IMG/VR virus record: IMGVR_UViG_3300032331_001408
Coordinates: 1 to 22,154 of that record
Length of the DNA: 22,154 nucleotides
DNA from: a virus
Direction: 5' to 3' (one strand)
Below the pieces are notes generated by a model. The model was not told the DNA's origin. It ran no database searches and saw only the letters and a program-made list of their open reading frames with translations. Shown one piece after another: positions 1 to 22,154 of this stretch (position 1 is its first letter; each line of letters begins with the position of its first letter). The position numbers and the translations under genes are program-made.

Positions 1-1983
1 ACCACACAAGATCGTATCAAGGGGGCGAGAGCTTACCTTGCCAAACTTCCGTCTGCTATCTCAGGCGCTGGTGGACACCCCGCCACGTATCGAGCAGCTT
101 CTATTCTTGCGAATGGTTTTGATTTGCCATACGACGAAGCTTGGAATTTACTTAATGAGTGGAATATAAGCCATTGTAGTCCTCAATGGAGTGAGAAGGA
201 TTTGCGCCACAAGCTGAACGACGCTTACGTTAAGCCGCACGAAAAACCGAAGGGTTGGCTACTAGGCAATAGCAAAGTATTGGGGTCTAATGGTCGAATG
301 ATGTTCGACCCGAAGCGCGTAGCCGAGATAGCTTTCGGATCTATTCCATTAACTACGGCTGACTTACTATTGGCAGCTTTCAAAGATGAAGAAATCGTTT
401 GTATCACCAATGAAGCTGGTCAGTCCGAAGATGGTAGGTTCTATCCAGCTTCTAAGGGTATATTTATTACAAGATCGGAATGGATAACTAAGTTTTTCGG
501 TCCAGGCGCTAAGCATAAGAAATTCGACGATACCGAGCAAGGCGCTTGGGTTCGTATCAATCCTTACAAGGAAGATGATGTAACAGGCGCGGATACAGGT
601 ATCTCCAGCTATCGGCACGTTCTAGTCGAGTTCGACAAAAAGAGTAAAGAGGAACAGATAGCTATATTCCATCAATCCAATTTGCCTATAACGGCTTTGA
701 TAGACTCAGGTGGCAAGTCAGTCCATGCTTGGGTTAAAGTTGACGCGGAAGATAAGCAACAATGGGAAGCCAGACGTAATCAGATTTATGAGTTCCTGTC
801 TGATCATGAACCAGATCCGCAGAACAAGAACCCATCGCGCTGGTCAAGATTGGGCGGTATCATGCGCGGGGACAATGAGCAAAAGGTATTGGCGCTCAAT
901 GTCGGCGCCGACGATTGGGATAGCTGGATAGCTTGGAAGGAAGGGCAAGACTTACCTGATGAGCTTAAGACCGATTTCCTAGAAACCTACGACACTCAAC
1001 ACGACCCGAACCATGTCATCGGGTATGGGCGCTGGCTTTGTAGGGGTGGATCGTTGCTTATTACAGGTCAATCGGGTATAGGTAAGTCCAGCTTCACCAT
1101 GCAAACAGCCGTCTCATGGGCAATAGGACGCGAACTTTTTGGCATACCTGTCAAGAAACCTTTGAAAATCGCCGTAATCCAGGCCGAGTGCGACGTTGGT
1201 GATATGGCTGAGAGCTATCAGGGTGTAACATCGTCAATGCAGTTGAAACCCGAAGAAAAGGAAATGTTGCGCGAAAACTTAAGATTTTATACGGAGACAA
1301 CCAAGACAGGTAAGGATTTCGCGGATTTATGCCGAAAGATAGTTGTTCGTCTAGGGCTGGACGTATTGTTCTGCGACCCGCTGCTATCCTACGTAGGGGG
1401 GGATCTGTCCAAGCAAGAAGTGGCTAGTCACTTTCTCCGTAACCTAATCCAGCCAATCCTTAAGGATACAGGGTGCATTATCGTATTTACCCACCACGAA
1501 GGTAAGCCCAAGCCCAAAGAGGTCACAGATGGGCAAACAATCAGCGATATGGCCTATTCTGGTCTAGGGAGTAGTGAGCTGGTTAATTGGGCAAGAGCTA
1601 TTATTAACGTCAGGCGCGAAGATCAGAATAACCCCATATTCTCATTTAACTTAACCAAACGCGGTAAGCTAGCTGGTATGCGTCACCCAGACGGCAAACC
1701 TACCCTTACAATCAAGCTGCGCCATGCCGAAGGTAAGGTGCTATGGGAAGTAGCGCCTACAACTTCCAAGTTCTGTTTAACTCAGCTTGGTCCACAATTC
1801 GACCATTATGGGACTAAGCCCATGACGGCGCGCGTCAACATACTGAAAGAGCTTGAGCGAGATCATGGCATGAAGCGCGAGGAAGCTGAAGGTATCTTGA
1901 AGGCATTAGTAACCAACGGAGTCCTAGAACCCAAGAAAGTTGGTTCAGGTATATTCTACGTAGGGACTAAGCACGAAGCTTAA
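1..1983 (+). CDS. Primase-helicase, 5' end outside window
   Basis: Likely replication protein that primes and unwinds phage DNA. The frame is open from base 1, so the gene begins upstream and a TTG at 124 is internal; 660 residues are visible. Domains in order: an N-terminal helical segment with RAYLAKLPSAISGAGGH and WSEKDLRHKL, a signature often seen at the edge of primase modules (PriCT-like); a middle segment with LVEFD, SGGKSVHAW and DPQNKNPSRWSRLGG, resembling the acidic and sxH motifs of archaeo-eukaryotic-type primases; a RecA-like ATPase with Walker A GQSGIGKSS (about residues 356-364), Walker B DVLFCDPLL (454-462) and FTHHEGKPK; and a C-terminal winged-helix-like tail. The ATPase call is firm, the primase call is from motif pattern only. 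It is the only clear plus-strand gene and converges with the lysis end of the late region, overlapping it by 17 bases. Confidence 0.8.
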   Translation, partial: TTQDRIKGARAYLAKLPSAISGAGGHPATYRAASILANGFDLPYDEAWNLLNEWNISHCSPQWSEKDLRHKLNDAYVKPHEKPKGWLLGNSKVLGSNGRMMFDPKRVAEIAFGSIPLTTADLLLAAFKDEEIVCITNEAGQSEDGRFYPASKGIFITRSEWITKFFGPGAKHKKFDDTEQGAWVRINPYKEDDVTGADTGISSYRHVLVEFDKKSKEEQIAIFHQSNLPITALIDSGGKSVHAWVKVDAEDKQQWEARRNQIYEFLSDHEPDPQNKNPSRWSRLGGIMRGDNEQKVLALNVGADDWDSWIAWKEGQDLPDELKTDFLETYDTQHDPNHVIGYGRWLCRGGSLLITGQSGIGKSSFTMQTAVSWAIGRELFGIPVKKPLKIAVIQAECDVGDMAESYQGVTSSMQLKPEEKEMLRENLRFYTETTKTGKDFADLCRKIVVRLGLDVLFCDPLLSYVGGDLSKQEVASHFLRNLIQPILKDTGCIIVFTHHEGKPKPKEVTDGQTISDMAYSGLGSSELVNWARAIINVRREDQNNPIFSFNLTKRGKLAGMRHPDGKPTLTIKLRHAEGKVLWEVAPTTSKFCLTQLGPQFDHYGTKPMTARVNILKELERDHGMKREEAEGILKALVTNGVLEPKKVGSGIFYVGTKHEA

Positions 1984-2308
1984 ATTGACGATACGCTAGG
2001 GACAAACTGATCATTAAGCAAGATACGATAATCGCAATAGATATATCGTAAGAGTATCTTAGGGCAGCCGTAGAGGAAGAAAGATTGTTTTGCAAATTAG
2101 CGTCATCTGAAACTATGCCATTATCTGTTATGATTAAAGCTAGGGCGTGAGAGTCGTTTAGATCACTCAATACCTTATTAACAATGAAAGAGGTGTAGGC
2201 GGCACATAAGCAAGACATTGATAGAATTACTATGACGGATATGATAAGGTTATTATCACTTCCTTTTGTGCTTTTTTCCTTTTTCACTTTTAATTTTTTT
2301 GATTTCAT
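1967..2308 (-). CDS. Small two-TM membrane protein, lysis region
   Basis: Unrecognised protein of 113 residues. It has a strongly basic N-terminus (MKSKKLKVKKEKSTKG), a hydrophobic segment at about residues 20-46, a polar loop of about 45 residues, and a second hydrophobic segment before the C-terminal end RQFKLRA. The start at 2308 is preferred over an upstream one at 2389 because AAAGGGG lies 7 bases before it. The start sits inside the preceding holin-like gene, giving a 53-base overlap in a different frame. The 3' end overlaps the convergent primase-helicase gene by 17 bases. Two membrane segments and the position after a holin-like gene suggest a holin partner, antiholin or spanin-type role, but no family is recognised. 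Confidence 0.6.
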   Translation of the reverse strand: MKSKKLKVKKEKSTKGSDNNLIISVIVILSMSCLCAAYTSFIVNKVLSDLNDSHALALIITDNGIVSDDANLQNNLSSSTAALRYSYDISIAIIVSCLMISLSLAYRQFKLRA

Positions 2309-2609
2309 TTTCGCCCCTTTGCTTGAGATAACGAAGTCCGTAATCCAATAGCTCAGGTGCTGTATAACCAGATATGCCAATCGCGGCAAATTTCAATGGT
2401 TGGCTGCTAATCTGATCTGCCAATGCCCAACCTACAAAGATTGATGTAATCGCGGCGGCTGATACCCTACGGATAACCCAACCTAGCGTTACAGGTTCGG
2501 TAGAGAGCATTAACCTGGCAACCATCGCGGCGGCGCCGAGCGTTCCAGCGATTACGCCGTCTTTTAGGACAATGCCAAGATCTTCGGGGTTATTTGTAGG
2601 AGTTGACAT
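2256..2609 (-). CDS. Putative holin
   Basis: A 117-residue membrane protein, probably the holin that opens the inner membrane at lysis. Hydrophobic segments lie at about residues 19-35, 43-64 and 70-83. They are followed by APELLDYGLRYLKQR and a very lysine-rich C-terminus (KKIKSEKGKKHKRK). The segment ISGYTAPELLDYGLRYL resembles the end of the LydA/superfamily III type of phage holin; this is from memory of the family, not a search. The ATG at 2609 is preferred to an upstream TTG-type start at 2684, which would lie deep inside the preceding gene. The gene overlaps the preceding lipoprotein gene by 20 bases and the next gene by 53. It sits in the usual lysis position after the tail fibre, although no endolysin is seen nearby. 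Confidence 0.6.
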   Translation of the reverse strand: MSTPTNNPEDLGIVLKDGVIAGTLGAAAMVARLMLSTEPVTLGWVIRRVSAAAITSIFVGWALADQISSQPLKFAAIGISGYTAPELLDYGLRYLKQRGENEIKKIKSEKGKKHKRK

Positions 2610-3006
2610 TTTCGGATTGTTTAACTTTCCACCATAGGTGGTATAGGGCAATAAGCAGCGCGACGAGTAGTGCGCCGCTAACAATTATACTAAAGTAAGC
2701 CGATTGGACAATGTAGGGGACTGATCCAGCCAATGCACCACAGGCGATTAACTTTAATCCAGCGTCTCGCGCAAAGAAGGCAAACGATACCGCGCCTGTT
2801 GCAAACAAACCTAGTCCAACGTATGTGAACAACGAAGTCCCATTGGCCTTACCTACAGCCAGCGCTTCATCAGTAGCGTCCGATAAATCGTATTCGTCAA
2901 AGTCCTCAACGATTGTAGCTACAGATCCTTTGGCTGTGTCCTTGATAACGGACGCGCAGCCAACCATTCCGATAAAAAATAAAATGGATAAAAGGATTAG
3001 CCGCAC
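2590..3006 (-). CDS. Putative lipoprotein with membrane segments
   Basis: A 138-residue protein with an N-terminal lipoprotein signal: MRLILLSILFFIGMVGC ends in a lipobox-like GMVGC with Cys17 as the likely lipidated residue. After an acidic stretch there are about three hydrophobic segments (roughly residues 58-77, 84-103 and 107-125). The start codon is GTG at 3006, supported by AAGGGG 9 bases upstream. Phage lipoproteins near holin genes are often outer-membrane spanins, but those normally lack internal membrane helices, so the spanin idea is weak. Membership of the lysis operon is inferred from the tight overlaps on both sides. Confidence 0.6.
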   Translation of the reverse strand: MRLILLSILFFIGMVGCASVIKDTAKGSVATIVEDFDEYDLSDATDEALAVGKANGTSLFTYVGLGLFATGAVSFAFFARDAGLKLIACGALAGSVPYIVQSAYFSIIVSGALLVALLIALYHLWWKVKQSENVNSYK

Positions 3007-3009
3007 AGG

Positions 3010-3150
3010 TCATCGCCCCTTAAGTGCGTCAATGAGTCTTTTGCCTTCCATCTCTTTATCTGTAAGCTTTCGAGCATTGTTACGAAAGAACAAAGCACCA
3101 GCAATAAATCCAATTAAAAGGCCAACTGTGGATGTGATTAGGTATGCCAT
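3010..3150 (-). CDS. Small 46-residue membrane protein
   Basis: A short reading frame lying between the tail fibre stop and the lipoprotein start. The protein begins MAYLITSTVGLLIGFIAGAL, one clear transmembrane segment at about residues 3-21, followed by a short charged tail (RNNARKLTDKEMEGKRL). It starts three bases after the tail fibre stop and its stop lies three bases before the lipoprotein GTG, the packing expected of a real operon member. No Shine-Dalgarno site is visible, so translation may be coupled to the tail fibre gene. A one-helix small protein ahead of a lipoprotein and a holin-like gene could be a lysis factor or a spanin-like inner-membrane part; no family is recognised. Confidence 0.55.
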   Translation of the reverse strand: MAYLITSTVGLLIGFIAGALFFRNNARKLTDKEMEGKRLIDALKGR

Positions 3151-3153
3151 AAA

Positions 3154-5643
3154 TTATACAGTAAGGTAATTCTTTCCACCTTGAGTAAAGACAGTAGCTG
3201 CCAGCCATGCACCATTACGATAAACATAATAGTTTCCGTCGCTAGGTGGTGGTAAGAATGGAACAGTCTGCGCGGTAGCAATAGAATTAAATTTAATACC
3301 TGTTGAGTCAACCTTAAGAGCTGAAGTTGCGTCTGGCGCTATACCAATTCCAACGCGTCCAGAATTACTTATTACAAAAGGCGTTGCGTCTGGGCTGGTT
3401 TCATCTTCAACACGCAAAGACTCGCCTGTTCCTGTATTTGTAATTTTTAATGAAGCACCAGATCCAGAATTGTTAATTGTTAAAGTTGGATTGCTTGTGC
3501 TTTGCTGAATAGTTTGATAAGCAGTAAATACATTTACTCGATTAGTGTCAGCGATAATACGTTCTGTATTCGATGAGTCTTTGTATCTCATACTAGATGT
3601 AGAAATCCAAATGTCACCGACTGCGGGCTGTGCTGGTGTCTTTCCTGCAGACATTCTGAGTGGTGCAATATTGTCTCCTACAGGTATGTTTATTACTACC
3701 TGTCCAGATACAGTAGGATTGATTAAAAAATTTTCGTCTAATACTGTAGAGGAATTTATTTGAAGTCCATTGTGATCTAATGTTAATTGACTTTGATAAC
3801 CATCAATGCCAATAAACGCATCACTTGTTAAATCGAAACCATTTTCGTTTTGGGTAAAAGTAGATTTTCTATAACCATCTTCACCAGGATCTCCAACTTG
3901 TTTTGAAAACGTAATAGGCAGATTAGTTGATGTTACCTCAGTATTGGAAATTGTAACAGACTTACCATTAGCACCATTTACATATAAACCTTCAGTATCA
4001 AAAAATGTATTGTGTCCATTTGAACTATCAGTTGCACCAAATCCACCGATAAAAGCTTGTGACCAGGGGCCATCATCTCCTGGTCCTCTTGTATCAAGAT
4101 TTATAGCACCAGACATTTTACCACCTGTAAGCGGTAGTCCTGCGGTGGATTGGGTTGTAGAGTCGGCAAATGTTATAAATCCAAAACCACCTGTTAATGA
4201 TATACCATTACTATCTAATCTTACAAGGTCTGCTTGAAAACTTATAAAATCATTACCAATAAACAAAGAGTCATAACTATCGTTATTATTAACATATAGA
4301 TTTGCATTTAAGTTAATATTGCCTGTAATTGTCCCGCCATTCAAAGACAACTTGCCGTCTAATGCTGATTGTAAATCTGTTTGGTTGCTAAGAGTCCCTG
4401 TAATACTACCCCAAACATTTTCAGCTGATCCAATGTCGCTCATTGTAGCAAACGCGTTTCCAGGACCAGGTGAATTGGAGGAACTTAATGCGGTTGCGAT
4501 ATTTACACCATCAAGTGTTGTAGTTCCTAGATTTTTCCAAATCTGATTTACTGTTGTATTACTAGGGTTCTGATCCGCGTCCCTTCTTACAAATCGAGCA
4601 TTGGCTTGGTCATTGGAAATAGGCGTTCCCAATGGCAAAGGAAGTATTGCCCCATCAGTAATAACATCGGAAGCTATAACACATGATGTTTGTAGTAGTG
4701 TATATTTCTTATCATCAACACTTATTGATACTTCAATCGTAGTTGCTTTACGAGCTTCACCATTTAAGAATTGGTGGCACTCAGCTGTTGATAAATTGAT
4801 AGAACCATAATAACCGCTATAGCCAATTAAAGTTCCAGACGTTTCTAATGTAGTATTAGTAGTTAATACAATATCCCATTGTGAAAAACCTGTATTGAAT
4901 ACTTGTAAGTTTAAAGCATTAGCAATCTCATCGGCTGATACATTATATCTAAATGTATAAGAAAGGTTATTATAAAAAATATTAAAAGACCCCGACTTTG
5001 GCTGAGGATCAATATTAACTCTGTAAATCTTTGTAGATCCGTCCCAAGCTTGAATAATCTGATTACTAATTACAGGACTTGGTAGCGCTGTCCATGTGTT
5101 AGACAAAGCTATTGGATTTTGACGAAGTTCAACGAAAATGATTTCTTTTAATTCTTCGGTTCCAGCTTGAACCAATGTTGCTGTTATATATGAAGCTGGT
5201 GTTAGCGCGTCAGAACCTTGTTCGATTAAAGGTTTAGATCCGTAAGTATTCCAAGTTATATTATAGGCGTCTCCAACCTTAGAAACACTTACTCCACCAG
5301 CCGACAATACAGCTGGTAATTCATTTAGAGCTGTTTGAACAATAGTAGCCGTAGCATTGTATGGCATATCGCCTGTTTCCATTCCATTGACCATGAGCTG
5401 CCATGTGCCGCCTGTTGGATAGGCATTTGTTTCGCCTACGGCTACAGTTATTGCTGCGCCAGCTGGGAAGGGTAATTCAACAGGGGTATTACCAACGCCA
5501 GCTGACGCTACAATATGAAGTTCTAAATTTGCCTCATTACCTTGATAGAAAATAGGGGACGAAGCGGCAATAAATGAAGTTTGATTAGCTAATAAACGAT
5601 TAGCGTCAGTTGCCATCCAAAAACGATAAGTATTTATAGCCAT
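3154..5643 (-). CDS. Tail fibre / receptor-binding protein
   Basis: An 829-residue virion protein, the likely host-recognition fibre. The N-terminus (MAINTYRFWMATDANRLLAN) probably anchors to the tail. Two similar beta-rich units follow, at about residues 79-109 (GTWQLMVNG...YNATATIVQTALNEL) and 218-245 (GSFNIFYNN...YNVSADEIANALN), a repeat type seen in phage fibres. The middle carries classic fibre motifs WGSITGTLSNQTDLQSALDG (about 411-430), NGGTITGNI and LPLTGGKMSGAI (about 503-514). The C-terminal part has a GRVGIGIAPD segment and ends GGKNYLTV. No tail-spike enzyme motif or intramolecular chaperone was recognised. The gene is preceded by a copy of the recurring 15-base motif and a weak AAGG ribosome site, and it heads the fibre/lysis block. 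Confidence 0.85.
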   Translation of the reverse strand: MAINTYRFWMATDANRLLANQTSFIAASSPIFYQGNEANLELHIVASAGVGNTPVELPFPAGAAITVAVGETNAYPTGGTWQLMVNGMETGDMPYNATATIVQTALNELPAVLSAGGVSVSKVGDAYNITWNTYGSKPLIEQGSDALTPASYITATLVQAGTEELKEIIFVELRQNPIALSNTWTALPSPVISNQIIQAWDGSTKIYRVNIDPQPKSGSFNIFYNNLSYTFRYNVSADEIANALNLQVFNTGFSQWDIVLTTNTTLETSGTLIGYSGYYGSINLSTAECHQFLNGEARKATTIEVSISVDDKKYTLLQTSCVIASDVITDGAILPLPLGTPISNDQANARFVRRDADQNPSNTTVNQIWKNLGTTTLDGVNIATALSSSNSPGPGNAFATMSDIGSAENVWGSITGTLSNQTDLQSALDGKLSLNGGTITGNINLNANLYVNNNDSYDSLFIGNDFISFQADLVRLDSNGISLTGGFGFITFADSTTQSTAGLPLTGGKMSGAINLDTRGPGDDGPWSQAFIGGFGATDSSNGHNTFFDTEGLYVNGANGKSVTISNTEVTSTNLPITFSKQVGDPGEDGYRKSTFTQNENGFDLTSDAFIGIDGYQSQLTLDHNGLQINSSTVLDENFLINPTVSGQVVINIPVGDNIAPLRMSAGKTPAQPAVGDIWISTSSMRYKDSSNTERIIADTNRVNVFTAYQTIQQSTSNPTLTINNSGSGASLKITNTGTGESLRVEDETSPDATPFVISNSGRVGIGIAPDATSALKVDSTGIKFNSIATAQTVPFLPPPSDGNYYVYRNGAWLAATVFTQGGKNYLTV

Positions 5644-5656
5644 AATGAGTTATGCC

Positions 5657-5671
5657 TTGCCATAAGTCAAA
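5657..5671 (-). promoter_or_regulatory. Late-block motif, copy 1 (fibre/lysis)
   Basis: On the minus strand this reads TTTGACTTATGGCAA, matching TTKGACWWWWGGCWA, and lies 13 bases before the tail fibre start. A second TTTGACA lies just upstream at 5674-5680. It occupies the 38-base gap after the preceding gene. The role as promoter or activator site is inferred from recurrence and placement. Confidence 0.6.
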
Positions 5672-5681
5672 TGTGTCAAAA

Positions 5682-6962
5682 TCACTCTATAGACTCAACG
5701 TAAAAATCAACCAGGCGCCTTGCTTTACCTTTTGGTAGATCTTCTTCAGCCCAAATAACTTCAGAAAGTTTCTGTTTATCTAATTCGTTTTGTGGACTAT
5801 TTGAAATCCATTTATCTTTATCTCCAGATAATGTTCCTTGTTTTTTAACTTCTTTTATTTCACCCCAATTAAATTTATATTCTAAGTAATTTCCAGATGT
5901 AGTATAATTACCTGTCTTTTCTATTGTTACATCACCCTCTTGGTATTTGATAACAAAATTAACTTTCTTTCCAGCATAGTAACAAGGTGTGCAAGGCCTT
6001 CCACTCATCGCAACAAATATTTCTATCTTCATAGTTTTCAAATCTTTTAAGAAACTATAATTAACGGCTGGAGATTGAAACGCTATATAAGGATTATCTC
6101 CGACTTCAGCGACTTGTGCAAACAATCCGTATCTTGGTTCAACAGTATAATCAGTTGAATATATTTGATATGGAGTATAATCAGTATCTCTTGCTAATAC
6201 ATATATTGGGTATGTTTTAATTGGATTTGGAAATGTATTAACCAAATCATTTGAAGTAATTGGTTGCCCATCTTCCTTCCAATAAAAATCTTTCAGATTA
6301 CCTGTTTTCCATTCTTTCCATCCATACAATTTTGGATTATAATCTTTATCAAATTGAACACCCTCGTAAGCATAGGTTAAATCACCAGATGGAGTTGCCG
6401 TATTGGTTATTTGTTGCCAATAAGAAAACTTATCATCTTTACTTGATAATTGTAAAGTTTTTGCACTACTATTTGCGCAATATTCTGTTCCTTCATCAAA
6501 TGGTGGATTAACCCAATTTCCATCGCTATCTGTAAAAGTATATTTTAAATGACTTCCAAGATAATTATTCCCTACACCACCTAGTCCTGGAACACCGCCA
6601 CCAGGAAAAGGGTAAAACCAATAATTATTACGAAATGCACTACTTCCAACACCAACCATATCGTTTGATGTTTCTGTAATTTCTAAATAATAACTTAAAT
6701 GTGAATTAGCAGTAAAAACTGAACCTTTAAATTTAACAGCTTTATTAGAAGTTGGAAACCAAGCACCATCGGTTATACCTGTTTCTGGATCATTGTCTTT
6801 CCACCAAGAAAACAATGGCAATTTATTACCATATTGACCCCATTTAACGTGTCCTAATATATCATTCGTTATTCCATTACCCAAACCTATTCTTTCTTCG
6901 ATAGGATCGTATGGATTAAACAAAAGACCTACCTTGCGTCTGGATAATGGACCATCAGTCAT
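5682..6962 (-). CDS. Putative virion protein, distal tail region
   Basis: A 426-residue protein of no recognised family. It starts MTDGPLSRRKVGLLFNPYDP and is unusually rich in Tyr, Trp, Asn, Gly and Pro, as are its two upstream neighbours. A CxxC pair occurs in GRPCTPCYYAGKK about two thirds along. No membrane helix or signal peptide is seen. The ATG at 6962 is chosen because it overlaps the upstream stop as TAATG and has a GGGGGG run 7 bases before it; a TTG 15 bases upstream would use that run as coding sequence. The place between tape measure and fibre suggests a baseplate, hub or tail-tip part. The gene looks more A+T-rich than the capsid genes. Confidence 0.7.
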   Translation of the reverse strand: MTDGPLSRRKVGLLFNPYDPIEERIGLGNGITNDILGHVKWGQYGNKLPLFSWWKDNDPETGITDGAWFPTSNKAVKFKGSVFTANSHLSYYLEITETSNDMVGVGSSAFRNNYWFYPFPGGGVPGLGGVGNNYLGSHLKYTFTDSDGNWVNPPFDEGTEYCANSSAKTLQLSSKDDKFSYWQQITNTATPSGDLTYAYEGVQFDKDYNPKLYGWKEWKTGNLKDFYWKEDGQPITSNDLVNTFPNPIKTYPIYVLARDTDYTPYQIYSTDYTVEPRYGLFAQVAEVGDNPYIAFQSPAVNYSFLKDLKTMKIEIFVAMSGRPCTPCYYAGKKVNFVIKYQEGDVTIEKTGNYTTSGNYLEYKFNWGEIKEVKKQGTLSGDKDKWISNSPQNELDKQKLSEVIWAEEDLPKGKARRLVDFYVESIE

Positions 6963-7672
6963 TATACTACCCCCCAATAATACTCTGCTGTGTTAGTTCC
7001 ACACTTTAATCTCTCAACCCATTTTGAGCCGCAAGCCGTAAGATTTACAATTTGAAAAGCATATTGAACAGGACTTGTGTTAGGTATTGCAACATTCTCC
7101 GCGTAACCAATAGTTAGATAAGTATGGTAATCAGTATCTTGTGGCGCTGGACTTTCTGAACCCCAAAATTCAACATCTTGTGGGAATGTAAATTGTTCTG
7201 GTGATGAACCAGATCCAGATATATCCAAGTAAAAATAGTATTTGAATGGTTGATCAAACTTTAAACCTCCATTGTCAATTCCACCTTCTTTCTTTGGGAA
7301 GAATGGTGGGGGTTGTTCATCTAATGGAGTGTCATCATAAGGAACCCAAATAGGAACAATGTTATTTACTGTTCCAGGCCATACTTTTATACAAGGAACT
7401 AGTTGAGCTGCTTCATTACCCATCTGACCTTTATATTCTCTTGTGGATAAATATAATTCAAATGGACAATGTGTTTGAGCAACGCCGTAGTCAACTTTTG
7501 GTGGAATAAATATAGATGTTCCACCATTAGAATTGATAATGTCCAACCCTTCAGATGGCCCGATTGTTCCCCTATCGGCTTGCTGAGCAAGTTTGTTTAA
7601 GGACTTTGCATAGATGGCTTCACCAGGATCAAAACCACCACCTGAATTATTTGAAAAGCCATGTATTCCCAT
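6962..7672 (-). CDS. Putative virion protein, distal tail region
   Basis: A 236-residue protein of unknown family. The N-terminus MGIHGFSNNSGGGFDPGEAI is glycine-rich and probably flexible. The rest has alternating hydrophobic and polar stretches suggesting a beta-rich fold, with Pro-rich turns such as DEQPPPFFPKK. Two Cys residues lie near the C-terminus (ACGSKW and LKCGTN). It begins six bases after the stop of the upstream gene, lacks a clear ribosome-binding site, and is joined to the next gene by a TAATG stop-start. Position after the tape measure and before the fibre suggests a tail-tip or fibre-connector protein; this rests on gene order only. Confidence 0.65.
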   Translation of the reverse strand: MGIHGFSNNSGGGFDPGEAIYAKSLNKLAQQADRGTIGPSEGLDIINSNGGTSIFIPPKVDYGVAQTHCPFELYLSTREYKGQMGNEAAQLVPCIKVWPGTVNNIVPIWVPYDDTPLDEQPPPFFPKKEGGIDNGGLKFDQPFKYYFYLDISGSGSSPEQFTFPQDVEFWGSESPAPQDTDYHTYLTIGYAENVAIPNTSPVQYAFQIVNLTACGSKWVERLKCGTNTAEYYWGVV

Positions 7673-7678
7673 TTTAGA

Positions 7679-8647
7679 TTATTTATTTATTACTGACTCA
7701 ACAGGGTAAATATCTGGATCCCAACCAATAACACCACTCATCATTAAATCTGCTTGGACTTTATATAGACCACCATAGACTTCCATTGAAGCGTTGGTGC
7801 ATAAGAAATTTCTTTTTCTATCTGGCGGTGTTCCTTTTGGCAATTTTGCTGGAAGATCTGCTGTGTATTCTTGACATAAATTATTATAAGGTGGTGGTAA
7901 AACAATAGCACCAACATTTCCGTAATTTATCCAACCAACCCTTCTCAATGTTTGCTTTGCAAGTTCGGCAGATGATGTGTATGCAAGACAACGAAGAATT
8001 GTATTAGGTCTAAAATAAGAACGGACACCAGCTTTTAGATTAACAGGATCTTCAGGTTTCTGTGATGGAAGGAAACCTACGAATTGATATTGAACAACTT
8101 GAGTTGCAGCTTGAGCCGTATATGCAAAGTGAGCGCGATTAGGATTTTTAGTTAAATCACTTTCATTATCACTAATATATTTAGCTGGACCAGCTAAGGG
8201 TATTGCGTTTCCTGATTGATCCTTACTTCCATTTGTTCCTATTCTAGGAACTTGAATGGCTGTAAAATTGGGGTGAGTCTCAATAGCTTCTTGAGCTGAA
8301 GCGCTGGTTACTTGAACCTGTGTAGTTGTTGTAGGTGAATTAAACTCAATACCACAATAATCTGCTGTGATTGTGCAAATACCATCATTTGAAGATCCGC
8401 TTACTTTATATAGTGTAAATCTTTTCCAATACTCAGCGCCGTCATCGCTTAATGGATTATCACCGCGTTTGAAATCGGTATCAACCCAATCCATTCTGTC
8501 TGAGTCAGCTGTGTATTTAATTTGTAGTGTAATTAAACCAAATCCGTCGTGCTGAATAGATCTGTTTTTATCAACAACATATATGCTGTTAATATCTACA
8601 CCTTCTTGTGTATAAGTTATTTCTCCACCTCTAGTTGCGTTTGGCAT
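7679..8647 (-). CDS. Putative distal tail protein
   Basis: A 322-residue protein coded directly after the tape measure, where siphophages normally carry the distal tail or hub protein. It starts MPNATRGGEITYTQEGVDIN and ends WDPDIYPVESVINK. It appears beta-rich, with several Cys residues (GICTITADYCGIEF, LRCLAY, NLCQEY, FLCTNA) and no membrane segment. No enzymatic motif was found. It starts three bases after the tape measure stop, so the two are surely co-transcribed. The assignment to the tail tip comes from position; a tail lysin or a hub protein are alternatives. Confidence 0.65.
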   Translation of the reverse strand: MPNATRGGEITYTQEGVDINSIYVVDKNRSIQHDGFGLITLQIKYTADSDRMDWVDTDFKRGDNPLSDDGAEYWKRFTLYKVSGSSNDGICTITADYCGIEFNSPTTTTQVQVTSASAQEAIETHPNFTAIQVPRIGTNGSKDQSGNAIPLAGPAKYISDNESDLTKNPNRAHFAYTAQAATQVVQYQFVGFLPSQKPEDPVNLKAGVRSYFRPNTILRCLAYTSSAELAKQTLRRVGWINYGNVGAIVLPPPYNNLCQEYTADLPAKLPKGTPPDRKRNFLCTNASMEVYGGLYKVQADLMMSGVIGWDPDIYPVESVINK

Positions 8648-8650
8648 AAA

Positions 8651-10162
8651 TTATTTTGCTACTTGGTTATTGGTATCAGCTGGTGGTGGAGTATTTACGG
8701 AAGAACCGCCGCCTTGTCCAGCAGCAATAGTCTCTAGTGCGTTTGCGGATCTCTCGGTGTTCTTATCAATATTGTCAAGTGCGCTTACTCTTGATACGGC
8801 AGATAATACGTCACCACCGCCAACTTTTTGCAGACTTGAAGCAGCTTGGAAAATTCCTACGTTTAGATCTTCCTTTTTAACGTTTCGTTTTTGAAGTTCA
8901 TCTAATACGTCTTGACCAGCTTTCGTCTTTCCTACGCCTTCAGACTTCAATCTAGCAATAAATTCGCCTTGTGACTCGCCTGGATACCTAGCACCAAATT
9001 TGTTTATATCTGGCGCTGAAGTATATTTCTGTGTTTGTTTTACCATATTGTAATTAGTCATAGCTTGAACAGGTCCACCCTGTAATAAGCCAGCTACACC
9101 AGCGACAAGAGCGCCGTCAAAGCCAAGTATATTTTTAGTTGTTTGTTTTACTGATACATCGGTTGTTTGAGAAAGCAAATCGGCAGCTTCTTGTTTGCTT
9201 ATTTTACCAGCATTATATTTTCCTATAATCTGATCTCTTGTAAGTGCTGTTTGTTGAGAAAAACCATATACTTTGTCAGAAACTTTAGCTTTAATAGTTT
9301 CAATTAAATTTGTAGCAGATCTATTACCTTGAGCAGCTGACTCTATTTCAGATGGTGTAAGATGAGGCGCATTTTTACCTAATTTCTCTATTTCCAATGA
9401 TCCTTCTCTCAACAAAGGTATCATGTTCTTAAACTCATTACCAAGTAATTGAGTTCCAATACGCGCTATTTCTGCGTCACCAGCATTGTTTTTATACGCG
9501 TCAGAAAGTCGTTTTAATATATCAATGTTTGTAACACTTCCGTCCCTAACACCAGCCATACTGATCTTGAGACGATTAAAAGCCAATACACCAGCGCCAC
9601 CTTCCATTTTAGCTTGTCCTAGCACTTCATTTGCCTTTGCCATAGCATTTGTAAATGTCTCTATGCTTACACCTGTCATTTGAGCAGCGTAGCCGTATTT
9701 TTGAACTTCGTCGGTTGATAAACCTGTTATTCTAGATGTTTTCTGGATTGTTCTAGCATACTGTGTTCCTTCTTGAACAGCTTGAACAAACATTTTAGCT
9801 GCTTCAGCGCCAGCGTTTAGTGCTGTTGTAAATAAATTAAAACCAGATAATGTTGAAGCTAGACTAGAAGTTAGCTCGTTACTAAATTGTTCGCTGTAAC
9901 CTTTTTCCCAGGGAAATGGTTGCCTACTTTGTTTTGAAACGGCTGTTTTCTGTTGACCAGGTAGAGGGGGTGGCAAACTACTTCCTGGTTGACCTGGCGG
10001 CGGCGTAGGTGGCGTAGGCGGCGTAGGTGGCGTAGGTGGCGTCGGCGGCTTAGGTGGTGTAGGTGGTTTTCCACCGCCTTCGGCTTCGATCTGACCTGGA
10101 ATTTTAACGTTACTTAACCCAGACGTATCCGCTACAAATTTAATTTTTACTTCGTCGCTCAT
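8651..10162 (-). CDS. Tail tape measure protein
   Basis: A 503-residue protein that likely sets tail length and helps DNA entry. The N-terminal part (MSDEVKIKFVADTSGLSN) is a common opening of tape measure proteins. A proline/threonine linker of repeated PPT units follows at about residues 31-56, encoded by 9-base DNA repeats. The rest is mostly helical and Ala/Lys/Gln-rich, with GAEAAKMFVQAVQEGTQYAR and TGLSTDEVQKYGYAAQMTG, typical of tape measures, and a hydrophobic stretch around LGFDGALVAGVAGLLQGG. It is short for the family; at about 0.15 nm per residue the tail would be near 75 nm. Its ATG overlaps the stop of the upstream chaperone-like gene by four bases. Confidence 0.8.
   Translation of the reverse strand: MSDEVKIKFVADTSGLSNVKIPGQIEAEGGGKPPTPPKPPTPPTPPTPPTPPTPPPGQPGSSLPPPLPGQQKTAVSKQSRQPFPWEKGYSEQFSNELTSSLASTLSGFNLFTTALNAGAEAAKMFVQAVQEGTQYARTIQKTSRITGLSTDEVQKYGYAAQMTGVSIETFTNAMAKANEVLGQAKMEGGAGVLAFNRLKISMAGVRDGSVTNIDILKRLSDAYKNNAGDAEIARIGTQLLGNEFKNMIPLLREGSLEIEKLGKNAPHLTPSEIESAAQGNRSATNLIETIKAKVSDKVYGFSQQTALTRDQIIGKYNAGKISKQEAADLLSQTTDVSVKQTTKNILGFDGALVAGVAGLLQGGPVQAMTNYNMVKQTQKYTSAPDINKFGARYPGESQGEFIARLKSEGVGKTKAGQDVLDELQKRNVKKEDLNVGIFQAASSLQKVGGGDVLSAVSRVSALDNIDKNTERSANALETIAAGQGGGSSVNTPPPADTNNQVAK
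10002..10068 (-). repeat. 9-base tandem repeats coding PPT linker
   Basis: Near-identical 9-base units (plus strand ggtggcgta / ggcggcgta) run through this stretch and code for the repeated Pro-Pro-Thr units of the tape measure linker. Copy number could easily change by slippage. Confidence 0.75.
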
Positions 10163-17211: not shown

Positions 17212-19062
17212 TTATGACTCAGGCGGCTTGTCAACAGCTTTTTCGTTAGTTGCGTTTTTATTTTTACCCTTACCTATCAATTTAGCCATTAAAGCTGGCA
17301 AAATGCCCATAGTCTCGCAATCCCATAGGTGATTTGGGCGATCTCCAATCTGCAACCAAATGGGCTTACCTGTCTCGGTTCGGCTTCTATGCTCGGATTG
17401 CATTTGCTTTCGGTATTCGTCCCCGCAATTCGACGCGTAAGTATGGTGTCCAGCTTTGCGAAGTCGCATAAGCGTATCTTTTAAAATTAAATTTGAATAA
17501 TGGAACACCCGACAGGACTGTTTTCCAATCTGTGCTATTTTGGCTGGTGAGTAAGGTCGATAGGCAATCTTCATTCCGTAGGGCGTTTGAACCTTCCAGG
17601 GGAAGTCTGTATTGCCAGATCCCTTTGTGGCGTTCCAGCCGTAGGTCGCGCAATTTCTATAAACCTCATCCATGTTTGGACCATCACCTGAGTCCACAAA
17701 TGTAAATATCTCAGCTACCTTGTAACTTACCTGTAATTGTCTTACCTGTTCCCAAGTATCAACGTATTCCCAATGGACAATACGGCTCTTACCATCTGCT
17801 GACCAAGATCTTATCAAGATATAAAACCCCTTTCGCTGAACGTCAACAGTCATAAACCTTAATTTAATAAAACTAGTGTTCTTCAACTGATCTTCGTCAA
17901 ACGGCGGCGCAACTACCTTGCTGTTAATACTCGCAGCTTCATCAACCCAATCTTCTCCCAATAAATAACCGCTAGGCAATACTTCACCGCCATCATCATC
18001 AGGTTCATCACTCCAAGATAGCGCCAGGCGCTTTTGTTTGAAATCGCGACGCTTGGTATCATCTCCAGCATTACTTTCTGAATTGGCGGCTTCAATGCAC
18101 TCAACGGCAAGATCACCCCAACTCAATCCCCATAGCATAGACAAAGCGTTAAAATGAAATCCGCGACGTCCTTTAGGCGCTGATGTATTGATTGGGACGT
18201 ACTCAGCTTTTGCTAGCATTTCAGCCCTTACGCTATTTCTATCTAGGTATCTATGCTTACAACTCTTGCACTCATATTCACAACCAGATCTTACGGCGTC
18301 CAAATTCCAACCTGTTGCTGTCTTAGAGTTTTCTGGGTATTTCAACTGAGTCCATTCAAAAGGTTGTCTAAAGTCACATTTAACACATCTGAAAGACCAT
18401 TCAGCACGATCAGTAGAATTAAATAAATTAGTAAATTCATCGTTATCCACGCCACCTTGAGAAACGAACACAGATTTACCTTGCCATGCAAAAGCTGTTC
18501 TACGCGCAAGCGATTGAGTTAAAGCACCATTAGGCCATAGCCAGCACTCGTCACCACCTAGAAATCTGATTGATCGCCGTTGTAAATTCTTAGTATTGTG
18601 AGCGCCTAATACCCAAATAACATTTCTATCAAATTGGGTAGTATTCCATTTGCTTTTAAGATTGTTGTTCAATCTGTCTCTTGTAGGCGGTGTGCTTTCC
18701 CACAATGGGCGCAAGCGAGTTTCCTGCCAATCTTGCGCGTTCTCATTTACGTCTTGAAGTAATAACGTTGGTCCAGGTGTTCTAGAAGGAATAAAAGCTG
18801 ACCATAATTCTAGGATCATAGACTTACCAGATTGAACGTTACCCATCACGACAATCGTTTCAACTTCAGGATCTTGTAACGCGCGAAGTATAGGCGCTAA
18901 GTATGGCGTTGACTCAATTCTAAATGGTCCTTGCTGAGGAGAATAAGGTATGTTCTTAACGTTCTTTTCTAACCATGCAATTATATCACCATCAGGATCT
19001 GGGGCAAGAAGCGCCCTAAGATTGTTTTCAAATATTTGGACTGTTTTATTATCAACAATCAT
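17212..19062 (-). CDS. Terminase large subunit, GpA family
   Basis: A 616-residue motor and nuclease that cuts and packages DNA. The ATPase has GNVQSGKS at residues 74-81 (variant Walker A of the GpA group) and IRFLGGDE at 165-172 (Walker B and catalytic Glu). Cys pairs CVKC (226-229) and CEYECKSC (261-268) form the zinc-binding insertion common to GpA-type terminases. The nuclease part begins near FMTVDVQ (Asp407), with FVDSGDGPN (about 455-463) as a second acidic site. The length fits lambda gpA (641 residues). Such terminases usually cut at cos sites, so a cos-type genome is likely. Its ATG overlaps the methyltransferase stop by four bases. Confidence 0.93.
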   Translation of the reverse strand: MIVDNKTVQIFENNLRALLAPDPDGDIIAWLEKNVKNIPYSPQQGPFRIESTPYLAPILRALQDPEVETIVVMGNVQSGKSMILELWSAFIPSRTPGPTLLLQDVNENAQDWQETRLRPLWESTPPTRDRLNNNLKSKWNTTQFDRNVIWVLGAHNTKNLQRRSIRFLGGDECWLWPNGALTQSLARRTAFAWQGKSVFVSQGGVDNDEFTNLFNSTDRAEWSFRCVKCDFRQPFEWTQLKYPENSKTATGWNLDAVRSGCEYECKSCKHRYLDRNSVRAEMLAKAEYVPINTSAPKGRRGFHFNALSMLWGLSWGDLAVECIEAANSESNAGDDTKRRDFKQKRLALSWSDEPDDDGGEVLPSGYLLGEDWVDEAASINSKVVAPPFDEDQLKNTSFIKLRFMTVDVQRKGFYILIRSWSADGKSRIVHWEYVDTWEQVRQLQVSYKVAEIFTFVDSGDGPNMDEVYRNCATYGWNATKGSGNTDFPWKVQTPYGMKIAYRPYSPAKIAQIGKQSCRVFHYSNLILKDTLMRLRKAGHHTYASNCGDEYRKQMQSEHRSRTETGKPIWLQIGDRPNHLWDCETMGILPALMAKLIGKGKNKNATNEKAVDKPPES

Positions 19063-19586
19063 TTAGTTTTTATCATGCTTCCATCAAGTGAAATTAGTAT
19101 TCCTTTGATTAAACCTTTCTCAAGAGCGTCCATTACAACCAAAGTATTGTTTTGTCCGTAGCTGATCAAACACGAAGGCGCGCCAGCTGCGTCTGATTTA
19201 GTTCCGTCAACGTGGTGAAAACAAAGTCTGCCTTTGAAAAAGAATATGCTATCTGCATAAGGCCAGATGTAGTCGAAAAACGTTGATGTTTCTGTCCTGG
19301 AAAAAATTAAAGCTATTCCGTTTTTATGGTTTGCTAGCTTTTCCATCCATAGTTTTGTTTGCGTTCCGTAAGGCGGGTTCATCCACACACGAACACTTGA
19401 GTCACCCCAATCGGAAGTTAATCCATCGGTAATTTGATTAAATGTCTTTTCTGCAATTTTCCAGGGTGGTGTAATTGGAGAACAAGGATCCAGATCAAAC
19501 GGACCAAGAGCGTCGGTTATATATTGAGGCGTCAACCATTCATCTTTTCCGTCTGATGACTTTTCATGTGAAAATGCTTTGCTCAT
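19059..19586 (-). CDS. Phage DNA N-6-adenine methyltransferase
   Basis: A 175-residue member of the small phage adenine methyltransferase group (Dam-like, PF05869 type by motif). It carries DEWLTP (15-20), the AdoMet-associated FDLDPCS (30-36), the catalytic VWMNPPYG (67-74) and GAPSCLISYG (135-144). It adds methyl groups to adenine in the phage DNA, probably protecting it from host restriction; the target site cannot be read from the sequence. It lies between the two terminase subunits and overlaps both by four bases, so it is expressed with packaging. No target-recognition domain is evident, as is normal for this short family. Confidence 0.85.
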   Translation of the reverse strand: MSKAFSHEKSSDGKDEWLTPQYITDALGPFDLDPCSPITPPWKIAEKTFNQITDGLTSDWGDSSVRVWMNPPYGTQTKLWMEKLANHKNGIALIFSRTETSTFFDYIWPYADSIFFFKGRLCFHHVDGTKSDAAGAPSCLISYGQNNTLVVMDALEKGLIKGILISLDGSMIKTK

Positions 19587-20218
19587 TCTGTTTCGATTTC
19601 GTCAATGGTATCGGTTATTTCTTCTTTAGGAAGTTCAATAGGTGTTTCAATCATTTCATTTGCTACGTCATCAGCTTGACCAGCTAGACGCGTAAGCATT
19701 TTATTCACTTCTGTTTCTATTGCTTTCATGGCTGTTCCTGGCGCGTCAGGATTTGCTTTAGCGGATACCTTTAATGGCAATAAACTAATTTCATTACGGA
19801 TAGAAAGAATTACTTTACCAAACGTATCTATTGCCGTTTGGGTTTTGATAAGTTCCCTATTGGCAATTTGCCGAGCTTGTAATTCTCTTTCTAGTGATAC
19901 TAGGGTTTTAACAAGCTTATCGTAGGTAGCATAGGACTTGGCTTGCTGCGGAGATCGCTCGCGTAGATCTTCAAGGTATTGGTCGTATGCTAGAGCTTTT
20001 AATTCCCTGTGTTTTTCGACGATCTTAGCAAAGTCCTCATCTACGATTTCACCATTGATCGGGACAATACTGTTATCAGTCCGTCTGGTCATCTTTTCGG
20101 CATACCAAGCTTCAGCTGCTTCAATGCTGCTATCTGGCATACCTTCTCGGAGATAGGCGTTAATGGTCTGTCTTGAAAGACCTAAACGTTCGGCTATGTC
20201 AACGGCTCTTACTTTCAT
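19583..20218 (-). CDS. Putative terminase small subunit
   Basis: A 211-residue protein with an N-terminal helix-turn-helix (MKVRAVDIAERLGLSRQTIN) as in Nu1-like small terminases that bind the packaging site. A long helical, probably coiled-coil region follows (SYATYDKLVKTLVSLEREL and nearby), and an acidic C-terminus (KEEITDTIDEIETE). It precedes the methyltransferase and large terminase with four-base overlaps. Size and layout fit a Nu1/terS protein. A general HTH regulator is the alternative, but position strongly favours packaging. Confidence 0.7.
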   Translation of the reverse strand: MKVRAVDIAERLGLSRQTINAYLREGMPDSSIEAAEAWYAEKMTRRTDNSIVPINGEIVDEDFAKIVEKHRELKALAYDQYLEDLRERSPQQAKSYATYDKLVKTLVSLERELQARQIANRELIKTQTAIDTFGKVILSIRNEISLLPLKVSAKANPDAPGTAMKAIETEVNKMLTRLAGQADDVANEMIETPIELPKEEITDTIDEIETE

Positions 20219-20718
20219 TTCTTGCGGCGCTTGGCGCTTTGTTTTGAGATCTCACAGGTTTCGGTGCAGCGCATGTAAATACTTGGTTCAATGTTTAATC
20301 GTTTCTGAATTTGCTTTACGCGCCAGGAAATCGTGGCTCGCTTGACGTCATATTTCTTGGCAACGTCAGCCATAGACTTATAGGTTCTATACCCAAGCGC
20401 AAGTCTTATGCAATCATTGTGCATAAGAACTTCTTTGTTTGTCGTGCAATCTAGCGCGTCTATTACCTTAGCGATAATTGATGACAATACGTTGACTACT
20501 CCATCATTGTTTTCCTCGTCTCTCAGATCCGCTTTCCATTCGTTTATCGTAATTGGCCTACAAAACTTTTCCTGGTCGTAAATGTATCGGTGCGGCTTTG
20601 GCACACCATCGTCGTTAATGTCGTATATGTTAAATCCAGCGTCCGTAAGTTCTTTTCTTTGCTCAGGTGTTAATCCATCTACAAAAGCTTTCCATTCATT
20701 TTCTATTTCTTCATTCAT
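20215..20718 (-). CDS. HTH DNA-binding regulator, sigma region 4-like
   Basis: A 167-residue protein with a helix-turn-helix near residues 115-141 (SMADVAKKYDVKRATISWRV) that resembles region 4 of sigma factors and related regulators. The N-terminal half is acidic and has no recognised domain; the C-terminus is basic (KQSAKRRKK). Its stop overlaps the small terminase start by four bases. It is the best candidate in the window for a factor acting on the 15-base late-block motif, but that link is inferred from presence alone. No membrane or enzymatic motif is seen. Confidence 0.6.
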   Translation of the reverse strand: MNEEIENEWKAFVDGLTPEQRKELTDAGFNIYDINDDGVPKPHRYIYDQEKFCRPITINEWKADLRDEENNDGVVNVLSSIIAKVIDALDCTTNKEVLMHNDCIRLALGYRTYKSMADVAKKYDVKRATISWRVKQIQKRLNIEPSIYMRCTETCEISKQSAKRRKK

Positions 20719-21510: not shown

Positions 21511-21624
21511 AAAAAGTGCATAAATTTCATAATACAAAATGGTTTTTAGCGAGGTGGGCTTTCTAAAGCGCCCTGCCGCCTCTCCCCCCTAAATAGATTT
21601 CTTAGGCGGGGTATGTCGCGCCGA

Positions 21625-21681
21625 CGTCGAGCGCCGCGCGTCCGTCGAGCTGCGCGCTGTCCGCGATTTGTGCGCGATTTG
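21625..21681. repeat. G+C-rich short direct repeats
   Basis: CGTCGAGC occurs at 21625-21632 and 21643-21650 (18 apart). CGCGATTTG occurs at 21662-21670 and 21673-21681 (11 apart). They lie between the composition change and the terminator. Confidence 0.4.
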
Positions 21682-21686
21682 ATCAG

Positions 21687-21718
21687 GCATAGAAAAGGCG
21701 GCGCTGTGAACGCCGCCT
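21687..21718 (-). terminator. Rho-independent terminator
   Basis: Stem aggcggcg / cgccgcct (21696-21718, 8 base pairs, 7-base loop) is followed on the minus strand by TTTTCT. It lies 24 bases past the stop of the G+C-rich gene at 21742 and separates it from the late region. Confidence 0.8.
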
Positions 21719-21741
21719 AGTCGGTCGGGAGGGTTGGGGTT

Positions 21742-22154
21742 TTATTCAGGATCTGCTTCCCATTCTTCGCGCCAATCGTCGGATAGCTTCAAATAGATTG
21801 GCAGCCCGCGCTCAGGTTCAAACGCGCTGCGCAACCTGTCAGGCATGCGATCCCATGAGACATAGAGCGGACAGCCGCGCGGGTCGGGCTGGTGGTAGAT
21901 CTTGGCGCTGTCCCCATAGATCCAGCGCGCAATTCCAGCGGCTAGCTGCTCGACGTGTTCAACAGCTTCCTTTATGGCTTTGCTTTCGCCGACGTCACAT
22001 AGTATGCAATCGAAGCCATGCAGCTTATAGGCGCAATTTACAAGCGCTCTGAACGGCTCAGGCAATCGCGCTTTGATGATCGCGTGGTGTTCGTCCGTCC
22101 CGACAAACGCGGCAGGATCCTGCGCGATCAGCGCGCCCAGCGGTTCAAGCTTCT
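21742..22154 (-). CDS. Unidentified phage-type protein, 5' end outside window
   Basis: The frame is open to the window edge, so the N-terminus is missing; 136 residues are visible. A TTG at 22065 is internal and not the real start. Visible segments include PEPFRALVNCAYKLHGFDC, a helical KAIKEAVEHVEQLAAGIARW, and KIYHQPDPRGCPLYVSWDRM. The last resembles a DPRG-x-x-LY segment common in small hypothetical phage proteins. The C-terminus is acidic. Codon use is strongly G/C-ending (GCG, CTG, ATC), unlike the late genes to the left. No function can be given. Confidence 0.65.
   Translation of the reverse strand, partial: KLEPLGALIAQDPAAFVGTDEHHAIIKARLPEPFRALVNCAYKLHGFDCILCDVGESKAIKEAVEHVEQLAAGIARWIYGDSAKIYHQPDPRGCPLYVSWDRMPDRLRSAFEPERGLPIYLKLSDDWREEWEADPE

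Follow-up and report, generated by a model that had tools for sequence, protein, structure and literature searches.

The window analysed here is the whole of IMG/VR record IMGVR_UViG_3300032331_001408, possibly a fragment: a 22,154-base stretch (41% guanine plus cytosine (GC) overall) from an uncultivated tailed phage. Our subject is a cassette of four small membrane-protein genes near one end of the window, and the location of the wall-degrading enzyme that would complete it as a lysis system. The cassette, its flanking genes and the gene used to place the missing enzyme are as follows.

3154-5643, minus strand: fibre/tail protein, with the cassette directly downstream.
3010-3150, minus strand: P46, 46 residues; one transmembrane (TM) helix and a basic C-terminal tail; phrog_3879.
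2590-3006, minus strand: lipoprotein, 138 residues, GTG start; lipobox MVGC, a tether of ~41 residues, three hydrophobic segments and a basic C-terminal tail.
2256-2609, minus strand: holin-like protein, 117 residues; phrog_6384; strongly basic C-terminus; two or three hydrophobic segments.
1967-2308, minus strand: two-helix protein, ~113 residues; ATG at 2308 or GTG at 2287; basic ends.
1-1983, plus strand: primase/helicase (PF13481 AAA_25, phrog_2597), convergent with the cassette.
17212-19062, minus strand: terminase large subunit (TerL), the anchor for the expected position of the endolysin gene.

A first-pass annotation of the window had described packed, overlapping genes after the fibre, without naming the strand, and had listed a one-helix protein, a lipoprotein with extra helices, a holin-like protein and a two-helix protein. 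All four genes are confirmed, but the P46 and lipoprotein genes do not overlap, being separated by a gap of 3 nucleotides (nt); the overlaps are those of the lipoprotein and holin-like genes (20 nt) and of the holin-like and two-helix genes (53 nt). The 3' ends of the two-helix gene and the primase/helicase gene overlap by 17 nt. A purine-rich AGGGG precedes both the lipoprotein start and the two-helix ATG, while promoter-like signals (5 against 3.1 expected) and terminator-like signals (2 against 2.3 expected) show nothing of note. Sequence comparison indicates that the four open reading frames (ORFs) are genes and not chance ORFs, because the proportion of synonymous differences (pS) exceeds that of nonsynonymous differences (pN) in 12 of 12 pairwise comparisons made among three close copies, as it does in 4 of 4 with one distant copy, and because order and strand are kept in homologues. 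The homologues come from 262 confirmed lipoprotein relatives among 310 pattern-matched stretches, the best 80 of which, partly redundant, were kept as cassette loci; counting loci with enough flank, order and strand are kept for the P46 family in 74 of 77 (P46 lying directly upstream of the lipoprotein), for the holin family in 71 of 71 and for the two-helix family in 42 of 65.

The holin-like protein weakly matches the phrog_6384 holin (E 5.7e-6), and the holins of PHROG 6384, 785 and 175 and the Pfam families PF16083 and PF04550 all match residues 19-102 of its 117. Hydropathy delimits segments at 13-31 and 45-63, with a weaker third region discernible by eye. The scores against these Pfam families, of holin superfamily III, are below cut-off; the protein is a distant relative at best and the holin call a weak one, with lesion formation a predicted function. 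The reading of the four genes as a lysis cassette gains further support from the presence of the same cassette upstream of an SLT enzyme in other phages. Their place directly after the fibre gene could also suggest that they encode small membrane proteins of the tail region, associated with the virion or serving as connectors; this is very improbable given the holin match, the lipobox, and the continuation of the same operon, in other relatives, towards an SLT enzyme whose sequence has a signal-like part. In the cassette of locus L008 no holin homologue was detected; its place (L008:6569-6790) is taken by a 73-residue ORF that combines a single hydrophobic segment with a coiled-coil-like tail.

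Searches of Pfam, PHROGs and NCBIfam revealed no muralytic domain in any of the four proteins, in line with the first-pass annotation. It had gone on to propose that either the endolysin lies elsewhere or the cassette works in an unfamiliar way. We consider it probable that the four genes supply the membrane components for holin-endolysin lysis by a tailed phage with a presumably Gram-negative host, and that its endolysin, of the SLT type, is encoded elsewhere. Gene content, conservation, the SLT fold and the place where relatives carry the SLT gene are shown by computation, whereas the functions in lysis are all inferred.

The nearest relative, IMGVR 3300027969_000269 (contig 269; 33,572 bases; 92.9-96.5% DNA identity over four aligned blocks), encodes an SLT-like protein of 157-177 residues at 733-1266, outside the part covered by the window. 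This gene lies 9.4 kb upstream of the TerL gene on the opposite strand; the window extends just 3.1 kb upstream of TerL, and the record therefore ends before the position at which an SLT gene would be expected. The arrangement is general among relatives: an SLT homologue is present in 15 of 24 relative records, and each of the nine records of 30 kb or more has one. In a set of 80 terminase loci (L009-L088), ten have enough upstream DNA, their TerL gene lying over 7.5 kb from the start of the locus, and in all ten the SLT gene is upstream of TerL on the opposite strand. Modelling (predicted local distance difference test, pLDDT, 79.5) points to an SLT fold for the relatives' protein: in a VIA structure comparison the model matched Slt70 (Z 11.1, 141 aligned residues, root-mean-square deviation 3.4), MltE (9.6), the phi6 lysin (8.6) and phiKZ gp144 (8.1), as well as MltC and MltF. 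Within the VE[ST]G-type motif of the family, E40 and G42 are invariant in 14 of 14 sequences; the Glu of the ES/ET-G motif of SLT enzymes is the catalytic residue.

An endolysin inside the window was considered and rejected, since a search for the SLT family (0/1) and domain scans were negative; by Pfam, the latter gave no muralytic domain for the other main genes of the window (a set without TerL, and with 20215-20718 scanned by PHROGs only). In contig 269, the part beyond the window's stretch was represented in the Pfam scan by 14 genes, about ten short ORFs being left out. Taken at face value, the negative searches of the four proteins and of the rest of the window would fit a cassette that lyses without an endolysin by an unfamiliar mechanism, such as a single-gene block of wall synthesis or membrane disruption alone. 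We regard such lysis as highly unlikely, as the record is a fragment by the measure of its relatives, in which the same cassette is accompanied by an SLT gene, whether distant or directly downstream. Because these relatives encode SLT beyond the fragment's end, the absence of an endolysin from the window is ordinary, and because their endolysin is encoded elsewhere no unfamiliar mechanism is needed to explain it.

In the holin-endolysin system that we favour, the holin-like protein would permeabilise the inner membrane late in infection, with the two-helix protein, whose gene overlaps the holin gene, possibly modulating the timing. The SLT-type lytic transglycosylase, produced from the opposite-strand replication operon outside the fragment, would then reach and cut the peptidoglycan, and the lipoprotein, with its N-terminal lipid and three C-terminal inner-membrane helices, may bring about outer-membrane disruption in the manner of a unimolecular spanin.

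Several observations weigh against this system. The SLT gene is seen in relatives and not in the window's own genome, and its location in a replication operon would also be compatible with a role other than lysis. Pfam SLT scores straddle the cut-off of 21.3 bits (contig 269, 21.0; L188, 24.8), the Pfam scan of the L005 and L042 members gave no SLT hit, and the 33 best Foldseek rows for the SLT model, although they support it by their kind (lytic transglycosylases, Ralstonia chitinase catalytic domains, a phage endolysin or a phage neck protein), include none at E <= 0.001. The PF16083 LydA match of the holin-like protein, at 21.0 bits, is under its cut-off of 28.4, as is the PF04550 match under its own. 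As to the host, scans of genome_contigs confirmed no relative from the terminase or the lipoprotein alignment.

Two layouts of cassette and SLT gene can be distinguished. In layout B, to which the window and most of its large relatives are assigned, the SLT gene is part of the replication operon on the opposite strand, of which the primase/helicase is the last gene and within which the relatives' SLT gene lies further upstream. In layout A (L004-L007 and others) it lies downstream of the cassette on the same strand. Among the 54 loci with more than 3 kb downstream, 18 have a same-strand SLT gene 1.0-4.6 kb after the holin gene, 31 have the convergent primase, five have neither and none has both; profile searches of the 40 loci with more than 5 kb downstream, using profiles that had been refined on those very loci, gave 14, 23, three and none, respectively. 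By crude rules, the layout A sequences compared all combine basic residues at the N-terminus with a hydrophobic stretch and A-x-A, and the layout B N-termini are moderately hydrophobic, mostly without preceding basic residues and with A-x-A in some only; L160, a row that does not have the motif, was set aside. In the SLT tree (34 rows) layouts A and B form one split (support 99/98; 100% of 200 bootstrap trees), so that the correlation of signal sequence with layout rests on one event; independent switching between layouts is rejected on the same grounds. Short lipoproteins occur in both layouts, at six loci each (with one contig represented twice in B, as L001 and L003), and thus one cassette type pairs with either SLT enzyme.

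Separation of holin and endolysin genes has precedents. In T7- and T4-like phages the endolysin gene stands among DNA-metabolism genes and the holin gene elsewhere; the proteins are unrelated to those discussed here, and in the present phages the endolysin operon is on the opposite strand. In tblastn searches against cultured phages, four proteins of relatives, used as queries in place of the holin-like, lipoprotein and two-helix products of the window itself, namely the SLT protein of L005, the holin of L110, the M78 peptidase of L007 and the long lipoprotein of L118 (a 200-residue cut) had no match at E <= 0.01, and P46 reached only E about 0.2-0.3 among the matches listed. The nearest experimentally tested parallel is the Campylobacter phage Fletchervirus F352, which, according to PMC7692668, has spanins, an SLT endolysin with a signal peptide, and a LydA-like holin whose gene overlaps that of a putative antiholin, the genes not all standing in one cassette. 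On that description the likeness consists in a LydA-like holin, a small downstream overlapping gene and an endolysin of the SLT family (PF01464) whose gene is separate from that of the holin, extending in layout A relatives to the signal-peptide-like N-terminus of SLT. F352 differs in that its spanin is a two-component one, where the present cassette has a three-TM-helix lipoprotein, and in that its endolysin has a signal peptide, whereas the SLT N-terminus of the window's layout B has no canonical one; the F352 system, unlike the present predicted one, was expression-tested in E. coli.

The lipoprotein would be an unusual, and perhaps a novel, outer-membrane disruptor. By motif, its lipobox places the lipid on Cys17, with Ala at +2, and the hydropathy profile shows the three hydrophobic segments following this site; it has no family match in PHROGs, Pfam or NCBIfam. 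Long relatives of 230-255 residues combine a lipobox, a proline-rich linker and ~140 residues before three hydrophobic segments. A model of the long form of L121 (pLDDT 74.1, predicted template modelling score 0.38) has helices at 33-95, a continuous helix at 98-176 that enters the first TM segment, and two further TM helices. Alignment of the short and long families by hhalign (probability 99.2, E 1.1e-19) covers window residues 36-137, the membrane-proximal part, the short form being without about 100 periplasmic residues of the long one: the periplasmic part measures ~141 residues, with a helical stalk, in the long form and ~41 in the window form. Periplasmic Cys residues are absent from window residues 18-58 and from 73 of 75 long homologues, and the +2 residue is other than Asp in 74 of 75. 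At 88% identity the 75 parsed lipoproteins cluster into 31 groups; five of the 80 were left out, four having no parsed lipobox or start and the remaining one being cut by the locus end. Additional ORFs occur within some cassettes. At L117:2847-2999 (minus strand) a 50-residue lipoprotein-like ORF, possibly o-spanin-like, lies between P46 and the long lipoprotein, and in 62 of 71 loci an IrrE/M78-type metallopeptidase of ~95 residues lies between lipoprotein and holin (L007:3136-3423, L121:5174-5458; PF06114 27.3 bits for L007, cut-off 22.0), though not in the window cassette or its nearest relatives.

The earlier statement that none of the four proteins is a clear spanin is strictly true, but the window lipoprotein belongs, in shortened form, to a family whose architecture is spanin-like. 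As described in PMC6139136, the unimolecular spanin T1 gp11 carries a single TM domain at its C-terminus, and its periplasmic part is predicted to be mainly beta. The family resembles it in the N-terminal outer-membrane-type lipobox, the C-terminal TM anchor, the scarcity of periplasmic Cys and the position of the gene beside the holin gene; it differs in its three TM segments, its predicted helical periplasmic part and, for the window's form, the shortness of the tether (~41 residues). The lipoprotein may thus act like a unimolecular spanin, but we do not file it as one because both short and long forms have three C-terminal hydrophobic segments where the defining feature is a single TM segment. 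A bolder reading, somewhat less likely than not, is that it founds a new unimolecular spanin class, helical and anchored by three TM segments, found in hundreds of uncultivated phage contigs, with the bridge shrunk to ~41 residues in the window's lineage. The available portions of PMC6139136, PMC12596118 and PMC7692668 contain no description of a three-TM unimolecular spanin, which does not prove its absence from print.

It is also conceivable, though on balance unlikely, that the holin-like and two-helix genes alone serve lysis, and that the lipoprotein and P46 act otherwise, for example in superinfection exclusion or envelope remodelling. Short phage lipoproteins such as Llp and Cor are exclusion factors and would offer a precedent. 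Neither protein has a lysis annotation, the only holin hit of the long-form lipoprotein being at E 0.17, and the ~41-residue tether is shorter than 62 residues, the shortest combined periplasmic length of two-component spanins given in PMC6139136. Such a separation of roles is opposed by the strict linkage of both genes to the holin gene across many loci, and by the lipobox, TM segments, near-absence of periplasmic Cys and non-Asp +2 residue of the long members.

P46 matches phrog_3879, of unknown function, at E 9.5e-7; its description as a one-helix protein draws on hydropathy and on a family alignment. The two-helix protein, which has no significant family in PHROGs, Pfam or NCBIfam, has a conserved loop of ~40 residues between its helices and is a candidate antiholin or lysis regulator. 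Its start is uncertain: the ATG at window position 2308 reads ACG in the two closest relatives, and the in-frame GTG at 2287 may therefore be used instead.

Two further features lie away from the cassette. At 19059-19586 a Dam-type DNA methyltransferase gene stands between the terminase gene and the next upstream gene, a place that it does not occupy in contig 269. At 21600-22154 the GC content climbs to 53-64%, continuing in contig 269 as a GC-rich island of ~5 kb (about 3650-8700) that holds a beta-clamp-like gene (PF02767).

In the holin-endolysin system proposed here, the missing endolysin is best explained by a truncated contig together with a split gene arrangement, and not by lysis that is free of a wall enzyme. 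The analysis also reveals a widespread lipoprotein family that is spanin-like but has a three-TM architecture; if its members are indeed unimolecular spanins, the ~41-residue form would need unusually close membranes or a non-bridging mechanism. The same membrane cassette goes with two kinds of SLT enzyme, one with a canonical-looking signal sequence, encoded on the cassette strand, and one with none, encoded in the opposite-strand operon, and these two pairings make the rules by which holin, endolysin and spanin are matched testable.

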